Part shown: positions 13,021-59,552 of the stretch, piece after piece
How positions within the stretch are numbered: the stretch's first letter is position 1
How the letters are laid out: every line of letters starts with the position of its first letter
DNA from: Rhodopirellula halodulae
GTDB lineage: Bacteria > Planctomycetota > Planctomycetia > Pirellulales > Pirellulaceae
Direction: 5' to 3'
Length of the DNA stretch: 64,000 nucleotides
Assembly (NCBI RefSeq): GCF_020966775.1
Contig: NZ_JAJKFV010000016.1
Location: 1 to 64,000, forward strand
Translations under genes and position numbers: made by a program
The notes under the pieces: model-generated
Databases searched by the model: none
The model's input: only the letters and a program-made list of their open reading frames with translations
Told to the model about the DNA's origin: nothing

Positions 13021-14307
13021 GTCGGTGGGGAACTCGAGCACTTCCTCATCGTTGTACACGGCCATCTCGTGTGCCATCTCGATCGCTTCGATCAATTCCG
13101 CCCGATGCTGCCGGGTATCGGCGTCGCCCGGATCGAGCTTCTGAACTTCTCGGAGAGTTGCAAGCATCTCTTCCAACACTTCAACCCCCAAATAATTCAT
13201 GTGTCGTCGGATGTAAGACAGGTTGGCGGAACCTTGATACCAATTCGATTGACGCAAAGCGATCTCGTCAGCTTGCACCAGCAATCGATCGACAATCCAA
13301 GGCTCAGCCGACTCGTTTTGCAACGCCTTCGCGATCGCTGAAATCTCAGGCAATCCGTCTCCGCGTTCCGGGTACTTCGGAGGCGGATCCCACACCATCG
13401 GGAATGCTTTTGCCCCGAGACGTTGCATTTGTTGGATCGCCGCGTCGATTTTCCCTGCTCTCAAAAGCTGGTCCACCTCGGCGGCTTGGTAAAGGTTCGG
13501 TTGGAACGCAATTGCAGCGGCACAGAGCACCACACACGCGATTGCCGGCCATGCCCAAACCAAACGTTGCACCGGAGCGGCGTCAAAACCCACTTGCTGC
13601 CAAGCTTCTGGTTTTCGTTTGGCCAGCGTGACGCCGACAATCGCGATGAGTAACGAAGGCAAAAACCCATAAAAGCAAAGTCCGCCGACGAATTCCTGGT
13701 AATCCAAAAGCGTTTGCTGAGTCTCAGTCAACCGAACACCGCCCATCAGCGAAACCATCGACAGTGTTTTGGAGAGGACCGCCACGAAGGCAATCACCAT
13801 GCAAGGTGTGACGATCCACGCCAAGGCTTGCCAAAAACGAACTCCAAATTGAACACTCACCACACGGCTGAACAGCAACACACGCCAGATCGAAACGATC
13901 GACAAAAGAGTCAGATTGAAATTCAAAGCGGTCAGTTCATCCGTCATCGTTTCAATTGGGATCGCATAAAGCCATGCGAGAGGCGCGGTCATCCAGTAAC
14001 CCGAAAGAAACATCCGAAGGTCAACCCACCACGAGGCGGACCTGCGTCCAGCCATGCCAAGGCAAGAACTGACGACGACAAAGAGAATCCCACAAAACAC
14101 CAACGAAGCCGCAAATGGTCCGAGCAGATCGGTAGGCTGGTGCAGCCAACTGACCGCATCGTATTCGCGAGCCATCGCTGCCGTTGCCACCAACAAACCA
14201 CCCAGCAACAACGACCAGCGTGACTGCAAGACTCGCAGAATGGAGTCTCGCGAACCGACCAGGAACAACGCGGGATCACGAAATCGAAGGGACGCAGTGT
14301 CACTCAT
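12949..14307 (-). CDS. Polytopic membrane protein of unknown function
   Basis: A 452-residue protein with about seven predicted membrane spans in residues 30-270 (for example LLLGGLLVATAAMA and VFCGILFVVVSS), followed by a soluble helical domain of about 180 residues containing VDQLLRAGKIDAAIQQMQRL, which resembles a TPR-like hairpin. No family is recognised with confidence. Its ATG overlaps the stop of the radical SAM gene by ATGA, so the two form an operon. The last two dozen residues (D-Q-V-S-P-D-G-S-G-D-A-L-E-P-S-E-E-F) are read from the sixth unit of the 163-bp array and match the minus-strand translation of the other units, so the native C-terminus has been replaced by repeat-encoded sequence. 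Confidence 0.8.
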   Translation of the reverse strand: MSDTASLRFRDPALFLVGSRDSILRVLQSRWSLLLGGLLVATAAMAREYDAVSWLHQPTDLLGPFAASLVFCGILFVVVSSCLGMAGRRSASWWVDLRMFLSGYWMTAPLAWLYAIPIETMTDELTALNFNLTLLSIVSIWRVLLFSRVVSVQFGVRFWQALAWIVTPCMVIAFVAVLSKTLSMVSLMGGVRLTETQQTLLDYQEFVGGLCFYGFLPSLLIAIVGVTLAKRKPEAWQQVGFDAAPVQRLVWAWPAIACVVLCAAAIAFQPNLYQAAEVDQLLRAGKIDAAIQQMQRLGAKAFPMVWDPPPKYPERGDGLPEISAIAKALQNESAEPWIVDRLLVQADEIALRQSNWYQGSANLSYIRRHMNYLGVEVLEEMLATLREVQKLDPGDADTRQHRAELIEAIEMAHEMAVYNDEEVLEFPTDDQVSPDGSGDALEPSEEFTGVAR

Positions 14308-15656
14308 GGGGAAACCTTCCGCCGCGGTCGTTTGGATCGAATGGATTTTTGAATTTGGTCGCGTCGCGATTGAGCTTCGGGCCGATAGACGCGTCCCACC
14401 AATTCGTCGAACGAATCCTGTAGCTGGACGACCGTCATTTGATCGGGTTGATACACGACATCGAACAGGGTGTATCGTGAAAAGTCACCGGGTAGCAATC
14501 GCCCCGCTTTGAGAAGCGATTGGTAGAGGCTGGTACCGGGAAACGGTGTTTGAAGCGTTAGCTGAACTTCGCCCAAAGGAGCCTCGTCCAAAAAGTCACC
14601 GAGACGTTCGATTGACGCCGGTGTTTCTCCTTCGGCTCCAACGATGAAGCAACCGTTGACGACAATGCCCGCGTCTTGAATGGCCAAGACCGCCTCCATC
14701 ATGCGATCCCAGTCGGCGGTTTTGGCTCCCATGCCGGGGTAGCGAAAAACGTTCGATTCCAAACCGACCAGAATCTGCCGACAACCGCTTTCTGCAATCT
14801 GGCGTAGCAACTTCGGACGCAGAGCAATCCGCCAATCGGACTCGGTGAACCATCGAGCTCCGTGCCGCCGCAAAGCATCCAGCATCCAACTGTGATCGCG
14901 ATTGCTCGCAAACGTGTTGTCGTCGGCAAGTTCGATCCACGGTCGAGATTGACGCGTGGTGATCGCGGCAAGTTCACGTTCAAACAATGCATCCGGTTTG
15001 ACGCGGGCCGGACCAAGCAAGCGACTGGCGGCGCAGAACGAACACGACCAGGGGCAACCACGCATCGATTGGACGGTGTAGCGTGGCGGTGCGTGATCGC
15101 CCAACAAGTCCCAACGTGGCATCGGCGAATCGGAAAGCGAATAGTGGCCGCAGGATTGATACTCCGGCTGCATCCGATCACCTCGAAAATCGATTAGCAA
15201 TCGTTCGAACGAGGGTTCTCCGTCGCCGCGGACCACCACATCGAAATGAGGCTGGCAATGATCAGGAGCCGCCGTCGCATGCAAACCACCGATGATGGTT
15301 GTGATCCCGCGTTTGCGAAGTCGCTCGCTCAACCGACAAGCTCGATCTGCTGACGGCGTGAGGGCGGAGAATGCGACCAAGTCAGGCTGGCCATTTTCAC
15401 TTGCCCCGTGTTCACCCGCACTGAGTATTTGGTCCACCGCGGTCGACTCTTCAGCGATGCCATCATCCAGCACCAATTCCACCTCCCAATCGTCAGGCAC
15501 CAATCCGGCGAGGGTGAGCAAACCCAAGGGTGGTAATTGGGAGAGCGCCGTCGCACGGCGCGCTAATCCTGGCAGACGCAACCCACGTTCGAGCAACGCA
15601 TCGTGTCCCACCCGAAGCCCGCTCATGGAAACCAATGTGATTTTTGGGCGTGGCAA
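14304..15656 (-). CDS. Radical SAM protein with N-terminal cobalamin-binding-like domain
   Basis: 450 residues with a TTG start at 15656; Met11 is a possible alternative. The N-terminal third has the Rossmann pattern of B12-binding radical SAM proteins (LPPLGLLTLAGLVPDDWEVE, then IIGGLHATAAP and VVVRGDGEPSF). The iron-sulphur motif CxxxCxxC is Cys201, Cys205, Cys208 in C-P-W-S-C-S-F-C. The barrel continues with WIELADDNTFA, ILVGLESN and GCFIVGAEGETP, all typical of this group. Members methylate unactivated carbons or rearrange lipids and natural products; the substrate here is unknown. It is the first gene of a two-gene operon with the membrane protein at 12949, which suggests a membrane-associated substrate. 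Confidence 0.88.
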   Translation of the reverse strand: MPRPKITLVSMSGLRVGHDALLERGLRLPGLARRATALSQLPPLGLLTLAGLVPDDWEVELVLDDGIAEESTAVDQILSAGEHGASENGQPDLVAFSALTPSADRACRLSERLRKRGITTIIGGLHATAAPDHCQPHFDVVVRGDGEPSFERLLIDFRGDRMQPEYQSCGHYSLSDSPMPRWDLLGDHAPPRYTVQSMRGCPWSCSFCAASRLLGPARVKPDALFERELAAITTRQSRPWIELADDNTFASNRDHSWMLDALRRHGARWFTESDWRIALRPKLLRQIAESGCRQILVGLESNVFRYPGMGAKTADWDRMMEAVLAIQDAGIVVNGCFIVGAEGETPASIERLGDFLDEAPLGEVQLTLQTPFPGTSLYQSLLKAGRLLPGDFSRYTLFDVVYQPDQMTVVQLQDSFDELVGRVYRPEAQSRRDQIQKSIRSKRPRRKVSP

Positions 15657-55211: not shown

Positions 55212-56105
55212 TCAATTTGACCGACGATTCAAACGCATCATCGCGGCAAGCTCCACCAGGTTACGAAGCGAATCACAGTGAGCTGTGTAGCGAAGCCGCG
55301 GGCGCAGTTTGTCGGATAGAGCCCGCCCGCCGATCAGCAACGGAACGTCCTCGCCCAGCGATTCGGCGAATTGATTCTGAGCCGCCACGAACATGCCTGG
55401 CTCGCTGACCGACGACACGCTAAGCCAGACCATTTGCGGGTCATAATCGAGTGCCGCTTGGATGAAGCTTTCCATCGGCAGATCATTTCCCAAGCTGGTC
55501 GCATTCCACCCGACTTCGCGTAGCGCCAATTCCACCAACATCGTTGGCAACTGATATGGATCACCTTCGGGTGCACCACCAATTGCAACGGGAGCGGAGC
55601 CGCCGGGAGCCGGAATCTCACTGCGAAGCTCGTAAATCAGTCGCATGGCGATGTCGCATCCTCGACGCTCCTGATAGACGTCAAGCGTATTGCAATCCCA
55701 GGCTTCTCCGAATCCATGCATGGCATCGGTGATCAAAGCCTCGGCCGCTTCACTGCGAGTGGCACCCGAAGCGATCTTTTGTTGCATCAAATCGCGACAG
55801 AGTGATTCGTCACCTTCCGCAAGCGCGTGGCGAAAATTCTCGCTCAGCGGATCCGACGAACCTTCGATCCTGGTTTCTCGCTGGATTGCCAACGGCGGCA
55901 ACCCCAACAACTCCGGCCGGATCAGACAACGATCACCGCCGGAAACGAATGCTTGCAACGAATCGAGCGTGATGCGTCGGTGTCCACCGGCGGTTTTGAT
56001 CACTGGAATCGTACCGTTGTCGCACCATCGTTTGACCGAAGATTCGCTGACATTCATCGCCGCTGCGATCTGCTTCGGCGAAAACTGAGGCTGACGAGCT
56101 GCCAC
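55212..56105 (-). CDS. MerR/CarH-type regulator with degenerate cobalamin-binding domain
   Basis: About 297 residues from a GTG at 56105; an open frame continues to 56216. N-terminal helix-turn-helix of MerR type (F-S-P-K-Q-I-A-A-A-M-N-V-S-E-S-S-V-K-R-W with G-G-H-R-R-I). Then the CarH four-helix B12-capping domain: the W-x9-E-H motif is present as W-D-C-N-T-L-D-V-Y-Q-E-R, so its His is Arg and the residue after Trp, His in CarH, is Asp. The Rossmann domain follows; the D-x-H-x-x-G lower-ligand motif reads D-P-Y-Q-L-P. All three histidines that contact cobalamin in CarH are thus gone. It is divergent from a sigma-factor operon and probably controls it. Confidence 0.85.
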   Translation of the reverse strand: MAARQPQFSPKQIAAAMNVSESSVKRWCDNGTIPVIKTAGGHRRITLDSLQAFVSGGDRCLIRPELLGLPPLAIQRETRIEGSSDPLSENFRHALAEGDESLCRDLMQQKIASGATRSEAAEALITDAMHGFGEAWDCNTLDVYQERRGCDIAMRLIYELRSEIPAPGGSAPVAIGGAPEGDPYQLPTMLVELALREVGWNATSLGNDLPMESFIQAALDYDPQMVWLSVSSVSEPGMFVAAQNQFAESLGEDVPLLIGGRALSDKLRPRLRYTAHCDSLRNLVELAAMMRLNRRSN

Positions 56106-56162
56106 GGGACTAAAGCGATGAGAGGAAGGAAAGAAAAAAGCCAGCGGTTTGGCGAAAGCAGA

Positions 56163-56220
56163 TGAACGTTTTAAACGCACCGCATGAACGTTTCCAGTGT
56201 AAACGGTCGACAACACTGGA
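56163..56220. promoter_or_regulatory. Candidate operator between regulator and sigma-factor operon
   Basis: A perfect inverted repeat TCCAGTGT (56193-56200) and ACACTGGA (56213-56220), 12-base spacer, lies upstream of the regulator start. Two TGAACGTTT direct repeats 21 bases apart (56163 and 56184) precede it, and a third copy is at 56371. Two-turn spacing suits a dimer or tetramer such as a CarH-like protein. The rest of 56221-56571 holds the sigma-operon promoter but no gene. Confidence 0.5.
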
Positions 56221-56571
56221 CGATTTCCGACCAGGCAAACTCCACCTCAGCAGGTGAAATTATTCACGCTAACCGATCACGTGCCGTTTTTTCCGGTCTT
56301 CTAATTCGGTCAAAAACAGCGGGAAAGTGCTTGTCTTCTAAATCGTCCGCCGATATACAAGAGAACGTCTTGAACGTTTTTTCACACCAAAACGTCCACC
56401 ACGGAGTCAAAGACGGCACGGCGATTGCGGACACCGCGTTCCGAAGTCCATTGCGAAAGAGAGCATTCATAGCTCCCCGAGCCTTTTGGATTCATCAATC
56501 GTCGGCCCTCCCAGACTGACACTGATTCACGCTTCAGCCATTCAGTTTTGCCACCTCCTGAAGGTCATCCA

Positions 56572-57594
56572 ATGCCCGCCTTGAAAGCTTCCTCCGTTCC
56601 AGCCCGCCGCCCCGCTTGGATCAACTGTTCGGAATTGGAACAGGCGATGGTCGAAATTCGACCAATGCTGACTGACCTGACGGACGCCGACGCAGCGACT
56701 CTGCGTACGCTCACTCGCAGACGATTGCGAGAAGAGGTCGACTTCATCTCCAACGAGCGATTCACCTCCGTTCGTGAAGGCAAGAAGATCTTTGGTGAAG
56801 AACTCGGACTGGCTCCCCGCGAAACGGCACTTGGAATCGCCACCGTTCGTCGTAGCGGCGCCGACCTCCCCATTCACCTGGGCCGTCTGTGCGAAGCCCC
56901 CCTGTTGAAGCCTCATCAGGAAAAGATGTTGTTCGAACGGATGAACTATCTGCTCCAACAAGCGGCCATGCACCGCAGCGTGCTCAACCCCGAACGCCCT
57001 TCACGCCATCGTCTGGAATTGATCGAATTGCTGATCGCTCTGGCCGATTGGCATCGCGACCGAATCGTGGAAGCCAACCTTCGATTGGTTTTCTCGATCG
57101 TGAAAAAGTTCGTGAACCCCAACAACACATTCGACGACTTGCTCAGCGATGGAATCGTCGCCTTGATGCGAGCGGTTGAGAAATTTGACTTCGATCGCGG
57201 ATTCCGATTCAGCACCTACGCGACTCAAGTTGTTCGACGGAATTCCTACCGCACGGTGGTGCTGAAACAACAAGAGCGCCAAAAGGTGCAGGGGGGACTG
57301 CAGGACATGGACATTGACGTCAGTGAAGAAGATCGGTCATCAGCCATCAGCGAGAAACGTTGGCACGAGTTGCGTAGCCGGCTCAGCGTGATGTTGGGCG
57401 ATTTGGATCGCCGCGAAAAATTCATCATTCGGGCCCGGTTCTCATTGGGACCGCACCGGAAAGTGCACACGCTGCAATCTTTGGCGGACCGCTTGGGCGT
57501 TTCCAAGGAACGTGTTCGTCAACTCGAACGTCGCGCGATGGACAAACTGCGAGCGATGGCCGGCGAAATTCCGTTGGCGGAATTGGAAGCGTGA
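56572..57594 (+). CDS. Sigma-70 family RNA polymerase sigma factor
   Basis: 340 residues from the ATG at 56572, preceded by GAAGG. Region 2 is well conserved (E-A-N-L-R-L-V-F-S-I-V-K-K-F, F-D-D-L-L-S-D-G and F-D-F-D-R-G-F-R-F-S-T-Y-A). Region 4 has L-A-D-R-L-G-V-S-K-E-R-V-R-Q-L-E. Region 3 is reduced to a short linker of about 70 residues, and region 1.1 is replaced by about 120 unrelated residues. So it is an alternative sigma factor intermediate between group 2/3 and ECF types. Six bases separate it from the epimerase gene. Confidence 0.92.
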   Translation: MPALKASSVPARRPAWINCSELEQAMVEIRPMLTDLTDADAATLRTLTRRRLREEVDFISNERFTSVREGKKIFGEELGLAPRETALGIATVRRSGADLPIHLGRLCEAPLLKPHQEKMLFERMNYLLQQAAMHRSVLNPERPSRHRLELIELLIALADWHRDRIVEANLRLVFSIVKKFVNPNNTFDDLLSDGIVALMRAVEKFDFDRGFRFSTYATQVVRRNSYRTVVLKQQERQKVQGGLQDMDIDVSEEDRSSAISEKRWHELRSRLSVMLGDLDRREKFIIRARFSLGPHRKVHTLQSLADRLGVSKERVRQLERRAMDKLRAMAGEIPLAELEA

Positions 57595-57600
57595 TCGGCC

Positions 57601-59106
57601 GTGTCCGTCATCTCCCCCGACCGATCCTCGCTGAACAATCCGTCGCAAGACGCATTACCTAGCGTCGCCGCAAAAATGGATTGCGAACCGGAGTCACCTT
57701 CCTGCTGCGGCAGCGATCTCTACATCGCACGGCAAGAACTCGCGGTCGATCAAACGACCGCCTTCGCATACCACGAGCGTCCAGGCTGTCTGAGTCGTTT
57801 GACGCCACCGTGGGAAAACGTCACCGTCGAACATTCCGATCAATCCATCGAAGTCGGCAGTCGTGTGACTCTGAAAACACGGATCGCGGGGATCCCGCTT
57901 CGTTGGAAAGCACGACATGTGTGGTACGATCCGCCCAATGGATTCGCGGACGTTCAAGACAGCGGCCCCTTTGCTCACTGGCATCACCAGCATCGTTTCG
58001 AATCGTTGGATCATGACCGCAGTTGCCTGGTTGATTCGATTGAATACCGTTTGCCCGCTGGATGGATCGGTCGAACGCTGGGCGGTGGCAAAGCCCGTCG
58101 GACGATCGAGGCCATGTTTGCTTACCGTCATCGCATCACGCGAGACGACCTACAACTGATCGCCGATTATCCCATGCAATCGAAAACTATTGCCGTATCG
58201 GGCGCCACCGGATTGGTCGGCGATGCACTTTGTTCCATGTTGACTTTGTTGGGGCACAAGGTGATGAAGATCACTCGTGACGAAACGGGTGATGCGGACG
58301 AGATCGCCGCCTGGGGCAAGCCAGAGGAAATCAAGAAGTTCGAGGGCGTCGATGCCGTCGTACATCTGGCCGGCAAACCGCTGGTCGGCAAACGCTGGAC
58401 TCCAGAGATCAAAGAACAAATTCGCGAAAGTCGTGTCGAGAAGACTCGTGCACTTTGCGAAGGACTGGCCAAACTCGAAAACAAACCATCCGTTTTCGTT
58501 TGCGCCTCCGCGACCGGCATTTACGGTGACCGCGGGGAAGAAGTACTGGACGAAGACTCCGCGACCGGCGATTCGGATGACTTTCTGCCAAGCGTTGCCA
58601 AACAATGGGAGGACGCATGTTCGCCAGCGAAAGAAGCTGGTATCCGCACGGTCCACACGCGATTTGGAATCATTCTTTCGCCCGATGGCGGTGCCTTGGA
58701 GCAAATGTTGTTGCCCGCGAAAATGATGGGCGGCAAATTGGGTGATGGAAAACAATGGTGGTCGTGGATTGCTTTGGAAGACGCACTCGGTGCCATCGTT
58801 CACTGCATCGCAACGCCGCAGGTCCACGGTCCGGTCAATTTTGTCTCGCCCGAACCGATTCGCAACCGTGACTTCGCACGCACGTTGGGCCGTGTGCTTC
58901 ATCGCCCCGCCATCTTCCCCGCGCCGAAATTCGCTTTGAGGTTGGCACTGGGTGAGATGGCTGACGATCTGTTGCTAGCCAGTTTTCGAGTGCTGCCCAA
59001 ACAGTTGCAGCAGAGTGGCTATCAATTCCGTTTTGCCGAATTGGAGGACTGCTTGCGTTTCTACTTGGGCAAGCATCGCAAACCTTCGCAAGAAGTCCCC
59101 GCATGA
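57601..59106 (+). CDS. SRPBCC domain fused to TIGR01777 NAD(P)-epimerase
   Basis: 501 residues, GTG start 6 bases after the sigma-factor stop. Residues about 35-190 are an SRPBCC lipid- or ligand-binding domain (L-Y-I-A-R-Q-E-L, then F-A-Y-H-E-R-P-G and R-F-E-S-L). From about 195 the Rossmann NAD-binding domain starts (K-T-I-A-V-S-G-A-T-G-L-V-G) and continues to the C-terminal DUF1731 part (L-R-L-A-L-G-E-M-A-D). YfcH of E. coli is the best-known homologue; the substrate is unknown. In several bacteria TIGR01777 genes occur in light-response clusters. Overlaps the next gene by ATGA. Confidence 0.9.
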   Translation: MSVISPDRSSLNNPSQDALPSVAAKMDCEPESPSCCGSDLYIARQELAVDQTTAFAYHERPGCLSRLTPPWENVTVEHSDQSIEVGSRVTLKTRIAGIPLRWKARHVWYDPPNGFADVQDSGPFAHWHHQHRFESLDHDRSCLVDSIEYRLPAGWIGRTLGGGKARRTIEAMFAYRHRITRDDLQLIADYPMQSKTIAVSGATGLVGDALCSMLTLLGHKVMKITRDETGDADEIAAWGKPEEIKKFEGVDAVVHLAGKPLVGKRWTPEIKEQIRESRVEKTRALCEGLAKLENKPSVFVCASATGIYGDRGEEVLDEDSATGDSDDFLPSVAKQWEDACSPAKEAGIRTVHTRFGIILSPDGGALEQMLLPAKMMGGKLGDGKQWWSWIALEDALGAIVHCIATPQVHGPVNFVSPEPIRNRDFARTLGRVLHRPAIFPAPKFALRLALGEMADDLLLASFRVLPKQLQQSGYQFRFAELEDCLRFYLGKHRKPSQEVPA

Positions 59107-59552
59107 ACGCCAACGCATTGGTGCTGCTGAATGCGATGTCCACTTGGTATATGGTCGGTTTGATCTGGATGGTCCAAATCGTCCATTACAAAATGTTCGA
59201 CCGCGTCGGCGAAGACGTCTTTGCCCGCTACGCAATGGATCACGCGAGATTGATCACCCCCATCGTCGCGATTCCGATGCTGATCGAACTGGCGACCGCC
59301 TTGGGACTCTTGTTCACGCGTCCCACCGCGATGCCGTGGGGATGGGCGGTGTTTGGTCTGGTGTTGGTGGGATTGATTTGGATCAGCACAGCGGTTTTGC
59401 AGGTGCCGGCTCACGAGAAACTTGCCAACGGTTTTCAAGCCGACGTTTACAGCACGTTGGTCTCCACCAACTGGATCCGCACCGTCTTGTGGAGCATCCG
59501 CGGATTGTTGATGGCTTGGGTCGTTTGGCAGCTCTTACCAACTCAACCTTAA
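59103..59552 (+). CDS. Four-span membrane protein linked to the epimerase
   Basis: 149 residues with four spans: about 5-27, 48-72, 79-99 and 126-146. Conserved-looking polar residues sit in the first span (W-M-V-Q-I-V-H-Y-K-M-F) and in the second (H-A-R-L-I-T-P-I). It has the size and layout of small DUF1772-like integral proteins, but I cannot assign it firmly. Start overlaps the epimerase stop (ATGA), so it belongs to the sigma-factor operon and probably acts with the epimerase. Confidence 0.85.
   Translation: MNANALVLLNAMSTWYMVGLIWMVQIVHYKMFDRVGEDVFARYAMDHARLITPIVAIPMLIELATALGLLFTRPTAMPWGWAVFGLVLVGLIWISTAVLQVPAHEKLANGFQADVYSTLVSTNWIRTVLWSIRGLLMAWVVWQLLPTQP

Follow-up and report, generated by a model that had tools for sequence, protein, structure and literature searches.

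We describe a regulator gene and its divergent operon in a 64,000-nucleotide stretch of Rhodopirellula halodulae (contig NZ_JAJKFV010000016.1, referred to as the window), part of a 6.6 Mb genome. The regulator has the architecture of the CarH/LitR proteins but lacks both of the histidines that mark adenosylcobalamin (AdoCbl) photoreceptors, and it faces a predicted operator and a sigma-factor operon. The locus is laid out as follows, with residues numbered from the GTG at 56105.

55212 to 56105, minus strand: CarH-like regulator gene, 297 amino acids from the GTG at 56105, in an open reading frame (ORF) that extends to the GTG at 56216
55212 to 56105, minus strand: regulator domains, comprising a MerR-type helix-turn-helix (HTH), a four-helix bundle (B12-binding_2) and a Rossmann B12-binding domain
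Regulator motif residues: W136-x9-E146-R147, C150, D182-x-Y184-x2-P187-x41-S229-x-S231-x27-G259-G260
56163 to 56172, plus strand: operator-like half-site TGAACGTTTT, 5' of the regulator start, from sequence and half-site enrichment
56185 to 56194, plus strand: operator-like half-site TGAACGTTTC, 5' of the regulator start, from sequence
56331 to 56336, plus strand: predicted -35 element TTGTCT of the sigma-operon promoter, recurring in relatives
56354 to 56359, plus strand: predicted -10 element TATACA, spacer 17
56363 to 56369, plus strand: extra half-site-like GAACGTC between the -10 element and the palindrome
56371 to 56398, no strand: predicted operator, a perfect match to TGRACGTTTT-N8-AAAACGTYCA
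56572 to 57594, plus strand: alternative sigma-70-family factor with regions 2 and 4, about 160 residues preceding region 2
57601 to 59106, plus strand: fusion of SRPBCC (PF03364) and TIGR01777 epimerase/DUF1731, by profile matches
59103 to 59552, plus strand: four-helix membrane protein with conserved H28, H47 and H104, without a confident family or fold match

An earlier reading of the letters alone, here called the sequence-only reading, had placed the sigma, SRPBCC-epimerase and membrane-protein genes divergent from the regulator, and this layout holds, as do the gap of 6 bases between the sigma and epimerase genes (57595-57600) and the ATGA overlap between the epimerase and membrane-protein genes (59103-59106). 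The regulator probably starts at GTG 56105, because a start codon (ATG, GTG or TTG) stands at that position in 25 of the 26 closest proteins, the window's included, and because the two half-sites lie inside the 56163-56194 stretch; the 334-amino-acid ORF would thus start too early.

The ORF at 55212-56216 (minus strand) matches the Pfam families HTH PF12728, B12-binding_2 PF02607 and B12-binding PF02310, the last scoring about at its cut-off (31.0-32.1 bits against 32.1). Structure prediction, a check that the sequence-only reading had named, yields a confident CarH fold: the AlphaFold2 model reaches a predicted local distance difference test score (pLDDT) of 95.7, from an alignment of 65 rows taken from a group of 99 relatives described below. 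The top Foldseek matches to this model are the AdoCbl photoreceptors CtMerR (8jbt/8jbs, template-modelling (TM) score 0.83-0.85 by target) and CarH of T. thermophilus, and 8jbs is also the best solved structure by sequence match (E 1e-29). The regulator stays below the NCBIfam TransRegCarH cut-off (39.7 bits against 400).

The published light signature of AdoCbl photoreceptors consists of GxxW, EH, GxxH and GxxxP (PMC11796333), and the corrin-tail motif is given as D/ExHx2G/P-x41-SxT/V-x22-27-GG, with Pro permitted at the 'G' (PMC9304148). All three substitutions listed in the sequence-only reading are present, namely W-x9-E-R in place of W-x9-E-H (W136-x9-E146-R147), Asp after the Trp, and DPYQLP (D182-P-Y184-Q-L-P187), but two of the three features are not diagnostic: the residue after Trp differs between AdoCbl photoreceptors (Arg in CtMerR, Gln in SasPcob, Tyr in AbDPcob; PMC11796333), and the corrin-tail motif allows the Pro. 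The telling replacements are those of the H in EH by R and of the cobalt-ligand H by Y, and with them two of the four light-signature elements (EH and GxxH) are lost. The protein retains GxxW and GxxxP, the Glu, the D and the initial S, as well as the GG at x27 and the spacing of x41, with SxS where the motif has SxT/V. Both signature histidines are therefore lost, but most of the remaining motif is intact.

These replacements are not peculiar to the window. A relative (E<=1e-8) is present in 100 of 149 same-family genomes, three partial matches not being taken as separate places, and a scan of named genomes returned Rhodopirellula europaea 6C as the sole relative, with 85% identity in the regulator. 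In an unselected similarity ranking of 119 aligned relatives, every one of the top 97 carries ER; their ligand position is Tyr in 90, Phe in 6 and Ser in 1, and the lower-ranked 22 are mixed, mostly EH. A local pseudogene or decay is ruled out, the substitutions being common to those 97. Membership of the group of 99 required ER plus Y, F or S, so its count of R follows from the selection; positions outside that selection are nevertheless kept (G of GxxW in 99, W in 96, P of GxxxP in 98, D in 98, S in 98, GG in 99).

Strong matches from other Planctomycetota, where at least 241 of 392 genomes match and 40 regions were taken from the strongest matches, extended the set to 162 proteins, the proportions of which are not phylum frequencies: 121 have ER with Y/F/S (hereafter ER/Y), 26 have EH with Y/F/S/T (EH/Y), 7 are EH/H and 8 are other. 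Among the 162 aligned proteins, R-C-Y (R147, C150, Y184) occurs in 105, H-T-Y in 16 and H-T-H in 7. C150 switches along with R147 and is found in 91% of ER/Y proteins. In a tree of 160 of the 162 proteins, made by a quick search with four EH/H proteins as root (two of these have long branches), the 121 ER proteins together with one EA protein form a single clade of 122 (Shimodaira-Hasegawa-like approximate likelihood-ratio (SH-aLRT) support 93). EH/Y proteins surround this clade, and EH/H proteins fall outside, except L217, which lies within EH/Y. The tree is weak inside, with 43 of 157 inner branches open and a support of 33 at the deepest fork involving EH/Y. With moderate support and a weak root, it suggests that the order of change was from EH/His to EH/Tyr and then to ER/Tyr, the second step taking EHxxT to ERxxC. 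The exceptional L217 (7896-8888), an EH/Tyr-group relative with His at the ligand position, adjoins TIGR01777 and membrane-protein genes, and is a possible reversal or misplaced row. The window's own genome also encodes a second, divergent CarH-like regulator (L147, G000:C4:144835-145629) with 25% identity and TQ/D at the motif positions; genes grouping with CheA-like and NtrC-like families are nearby.

Counting only upstream regions of at least 250 bp, the exact 10-mer AAAACGTTCA occurs in 55 of 96 regions (from the group of 99), against 0.3 expected from shuffles, and within 500 bp upstream of 61 of 118 ER/Y genes (from the 121). In the same loci its density is 1.678 per kb upstream against 0.0046 per kb elsewhere. 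In close relatives AAAACGTTCA forms the palindrome TGRACGTTTT-N8-AAAACGTYCA, and at least 18 of its 20 positions are matched in 24 of the 118 ER/Y regions, with a spacer of 8 in 19 of these, against a shuffle maximum of 17. Across 13 whole genomes we found 10 palindromes with 0-1 mismatch, 9 of them at the regulator-sigma locus. The window's copy (56371-56398) is perfect and begins 11 bp after TTGTCT-N17-TATACA (56331-56359). Of 28 regions scored for this promoter pattern (from 30 with a palindrome score of at least 17), 21 reach 9 or more of 12, compared with 3.75% of shuffles. Because the predicted site lies just downstream of the -10 element, a repressor role appears plausible.

The tenth palindrome, with 1 mismatch, is located away from the regulator-sigma locus (L250:2994, equivalent to G141:C6:88293), between two minus-strand reading frames. 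A regulon call from the palindrome was dropped, sites with 2-3 mismatches in the 13 genomes not being clearly above a reversed-pattern control.

The gene block, which the sequence-only reading had proposed to look for in other Pirellulaceae, recurs widely. In 71 of the 111 ER/Y loci with enough sequence, a sigma gene is oriented divergently at no more than 1.2 kb, with a TIGR01777 gene beyond it in 40; only two of the neighbour families that were counted, sigma (75) and epimerase (50), exceed 40 of the 121 ER/Y loci. A furan-type context, taken as two or more genes from the set DUF1365, DUF1295, PF01593 amine oxidase and CFA-type methyltransferase, is found in 35 of the 121. The furan-forming step of furan fatty acid synthesis is catalysed by UfaO, a DUF1365 protein (PMC7380195); the pathway is controlled by the singlet-oxygen sigma-E of Rhodobacter (PMC6852236), and in P. 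putida class II LitR proteins are reported to take part in ufaM and phrB expression (PMC9758184). A photolyase-like cluster reaches 11 ER/Y loci, one member being a 90-amino-acid fragment without a Pfam match. L225 passes the Pfam photolyase cut-offs and the other members score below them; the five of these compared with the NCBIfam class II photolyase model phr2 match it throughout their own length at 331-370 bits, against a cut-off of 550. Because of these sub-cut-off scores and the fragment, we use the label 'photolyase-like' and count full-length genes in 10 loci.

Seven EH/Y loci (L132, L134, L135, L136, L138, L140 and L142) face a bacteriorhodopsin-like gene, as in L134:6887-14754, with PF01036 confirmed in the cluster members of L132, L134, L138 and L142. 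A lycopene cyclase gene follows the rhodopsin gene in six of the seven, and five also hold polyprenyl synthase, PF01593 desaturase-like and phytoene synthase genes, these carotenoid labels coming from one scanned member of each family plus a second phytoene synthase. Taken together, the many relatives adjoining furan-fatty-acid-type, photolyase-like or, in these seven EH/Tyr loci, rhodopsin genes make a light or photo-oxidative role likely.

Three smaller observations on these neighbourhoods may be added. L132 has PF01593 desaturase-like and phytoene synthase genes elsewhere in its locus; several rhodopsin loci show, by eye, CAGTTTT-type repeats upstream in place of TGAACGTTTT; and a PQQ_2 beta-propeller gene is found in 36 of the 121 ER/Y loci, directly downstream of the regulator on its strand in 28 (for example L067, L080 and L116).

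The sequence-only reading had suggested that the switch either lost its cofactor or uses another ligand or a protein signal. Its description of a CarH/LitR-type regulator without both signature histidines stands, but loss of the cofactor is not established: the corrin-tail motif and, on the adenosyl side, the W, the Glu and GxxxP are kept, and genes for both supply and use of AdoCbl are present. A cobalamin adenosyltransferase gene is found in the genome, as are genes for MetH and for an NrdJ-type ribonucleotide reductase (NrdJ over its cut-off), so that AdoCbl is probably available and the organism appears able to make it; by the same genes, a lack of B12 in the organism is ruled out as the cause of the substitutions. 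Cobalamin is, moreover, held base-off without His in OxsB, TsrM, CFeSP and Mmp10 (PMC13331322, PMC8828468). On the other hand, CarA is described as retaining the B12 motif although it is B12-independent (PMC9304148), and a kept motif is therefore no proof of binding. Our best guess favours a ligand in a remodelled pocket, with a corrinoid as the likeliest single candidate and a partner-protein mechanism as the main rival.

The best overall explanation, towards which we lean with modest confidence, is that the regulator has a rebuilt pocket that probably still holds a ligand and serves as a dedicated repressor. It would act on the divergent sigma operon, and probably on its own gene too, as part of a response of Planctomycetota to light or to photo-oxidative stress of the singlet-oxygen type, by binding the palindrome just past the -10 element of the sigma promoter and blocking transcription. 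A signal acting on the C-terminal domain would release it, and the sigma factor then made would carry the response further; the membrane protein and the TIGR01777/SRPBCC enzyme would be expressed along with it. The C-terminal domain would derive from the AdoCbl-binding domain of CarH, its pocket rebuilt from His to Tyr first and from EH-x2-T to ER-x2-C next, and would be no empty scaffold, its ligand most likely being a corrinoid without His ligation. What the analysis establishes is the sequence, its conservation, the predicted fold, the order of genes and the statistics of operator and promoter, from which we infer repression, signal, ligand and sigma regulon. A bolder form, which we offer tentatively and consider somewhat less probable than its negation, is a Planctomycetota-wide, CarH-derived sensor whose Tyr/Arg/Cys pocket, in place of two histidines, would hold its cofactor (a Tyr-faced corrinoid or another photo-oxidation ligand) and which would gate a dedicated sigma factor.

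Several observations weigh against this explanation. The gene is without a relative in 2 of the 5 other same-genus genomes drawn, and 4 of the 13 close genomes lack any palindrome of 0-1 mismatch. The palindrome exceeds the shuffle maximum in just 24 of 118 ER/Y regions, by a pattern which, like that of the promoter, was derived from the same loci, making the controls flattering. Where a sigma gene is present, 68 of 75 ER/Y loci have degenerate half-sites; ER/Y loci without one have them in 8 of 17 cases with a furan-type context and in 5 of 26 with neither, and the EH/Y rhodopsin loci in none of 7. Elsewhere they occur, in loci without a sigma match, in 7 of 14 EH/Y loci lacking all these contexts and 3 of 7 EH/H loci, and in 1 of the 6 remaining loci. 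Because the frequency of half-sites varies with locus context in this way, we infer, and do not observe, that the regulator itself reads the palindrome. The kept GG, S and D could be structural. The rhodopsin loci are of EH/Y and not ER/Y type. DUF1365 has no match in the window's own genome, where the other three furan-type families were not searched, so that the light context is borrowed from relatives. DUF1365 is present in 2 of the 13 close genomes, and we do not claim a local furan fatty acid regulon.

The main rival holds that the pocket is empty, the C-terminal domain serving only to oligomerise, and that the signal comes from a protein partner such as a CarS-like antirepressor or a short LOV protein. 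Such B12-independent relays have reported precedents in CarA with CarS (PMC9304148) and in the class II LitR PmlR2 with PmSB-LOV (PMC9758184), and the 97 closest relatives, of the 119 ranked, are without either signature histidine. However, the corrin-tail motif, the W and GxxxP are kept at 96-100%, the replacing R, C and Y are conserved too, which would be unusual for an unused pocket, and sigma and epimerase remain the only counted neighbour families above 40 of 121 ER/Y loci; on balance we regard this relay as unlikely. Somewhat more doubtful is a different pocket ligand, whether another tetrapyrrole or a lipid peroxide or other photo-oxidation product, with C150 and R147 reactive or anchoring. 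These two residues stand three apart in a predicted helix and switch jointly, and furan-type fatty acid genes adjoin 35 of the 121 ER/Y genes; yet C150 is not invariant (91% of ER/Y).

That the protein is an ordinary AdoCbl photoreceptor, its substitutions being neutral variation of the CarH pocket, seems improbable. Its nearest structure is indeed the AdoCbl photoreceptor CtMerR, it retains GxxW, E and GxxxP, and photoreceptors differ in the residue that follows Trp (PMC11796333), but two of the four signature elements, EH and GxxH, are absent, and the unbroken ER of the 97 closest relatives, 90 of them with Tyr, argues against neutral drift. Still less probable, in our view, is that the palindrome belongs to another regulator or to the sigma factor and that the CarH-like protein does not control the operon. 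The half-sites of ER/Y loci do follow the sigma gene (68/75) more than the regulator alone (5/26). By contrast, the two-fold symmetry, the 8-nucleotide spacer and the position past the -10 element fit a dimeric HTH repressor, both divergent promoters have half-sites nearby, and half-sites also occur in loci without a sigma match (EH/Y 7/14, EH/H 3/7).

With CarH of T. thermophilus and CtMerR of Chloracidobacterium the regulator shares the domain order, the fold, GxxW, the Glu, GxxxP and D...S...GG, as well as the presumed role of promoter repressor. Unlike them it has ER for EH, Tyr for the cobalt-ligand His and, in most members, ERxxC for EHxxT, together with its linkage to a sigma factor and a predicted operator of the TGAACGTTTT type. 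Of the features of class I CarH/LitR it has the HTH, four-helix bundle and Rossmann domain, and it lacks W-x9-EH, the ligand His and a score above the NCBIfam cut-off. CarA of Myxococcus xanthus, a B12-independent CarH paralogue, resembles it as a CarH-type protein proposed to act without canonical AdoCbl sensing, and the sequence-only reading had invoked it as a precedent. The analogy proves weak, since CarA is described as keeping the B12 motif and EH and having lost the Trp (PMC9304148), the opposite of a regulator that keeps the Trp and has lost both His, which sets it outside the CarA type.

Class II LitR proteins (PplR and PmlR2 of Pseudomonas) are also CarH/LitR-type regulators of light genes, with photolyase and furan-fatty-acid methylase genes among their reported targets in P. 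putida (PMC9758184). They retain only the four-helix bundle, whereas the regulator also has a Rossmann B12 domain (about at the Pfam cut-off, with a confident fold) and is to that extent not class II. The RpoE-ChrR system (ECF11) of the Rhodobacter singlet-oxygen response offers a further likeness as a sigma-led circuit tied to furan fatty acid genes; here, unlike there, a presumed transcriptional repressor occupies the anti-sigma position, the sigma factor scores best with RpoD- and MzaA-type models (among the best 25 of 55 matches) and the genome is without DUF1365. As far as anatomy can tell, then, we are dealing with a CarH/LitR-like repressor that is neither class I CarH, CarA-type nor class II LitR. 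We found no paper on CarH in planctomycetes, and none on a LitR-type regulator of theirs among the titles listed, although other wording or further papers could exist.

Two histidine motifs serve to recognise AdoCbl photoreceptors, and the large conserved branch described here has replaced both and often heads stress-response genes. It can show whether light sensing by a B12 domain needs a His ligand, whether evolution turned the CarH fold to a different photo-oxidative signal, and how a sigma factor can be gated by a repressor instead of an anti-sigma factor, with the EH/H, EH/Y and ER/Y series supplying natural intermediates. If the bolder form of the explanation is true, it would represent a third route, besides canonical CarH and CarA/class II LitR, from a B12 domain to a light or singlet-oxygen switch.

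As to the genes of the operon, the sigma factor (56572-57594) has regions 2 and 4 of the sigma-70 family (PF04542, 59.4 bits; PF04545, 50.6 bits) and is without a Pfam match to region 3; among the best 25 of 55 matches it scores best with RpoD- and MzaA-type models. The fusion protein exceeds the TIGR01777 cut-off (325.3 bits against 207.35). For the membrane protein Foldseek returned no match at E<=0.001, and an assignment to HemJ was rejected (TIGR00701, 19.1 bits against a cut-off of 138.05), its similarity to HemJ being weak (7 of 15 aligned members match at E<=1, the best at 8e-5); a sub-threshold similarity to anthrone oxygenase was also seen. Elsewhere in the window, positions 14304-15656 (minus strand) encode a radical S-adenosylmethionine protein (PF04055, 45.7 bits) with a B12-binding domain (PF02310, 51.8 bits).

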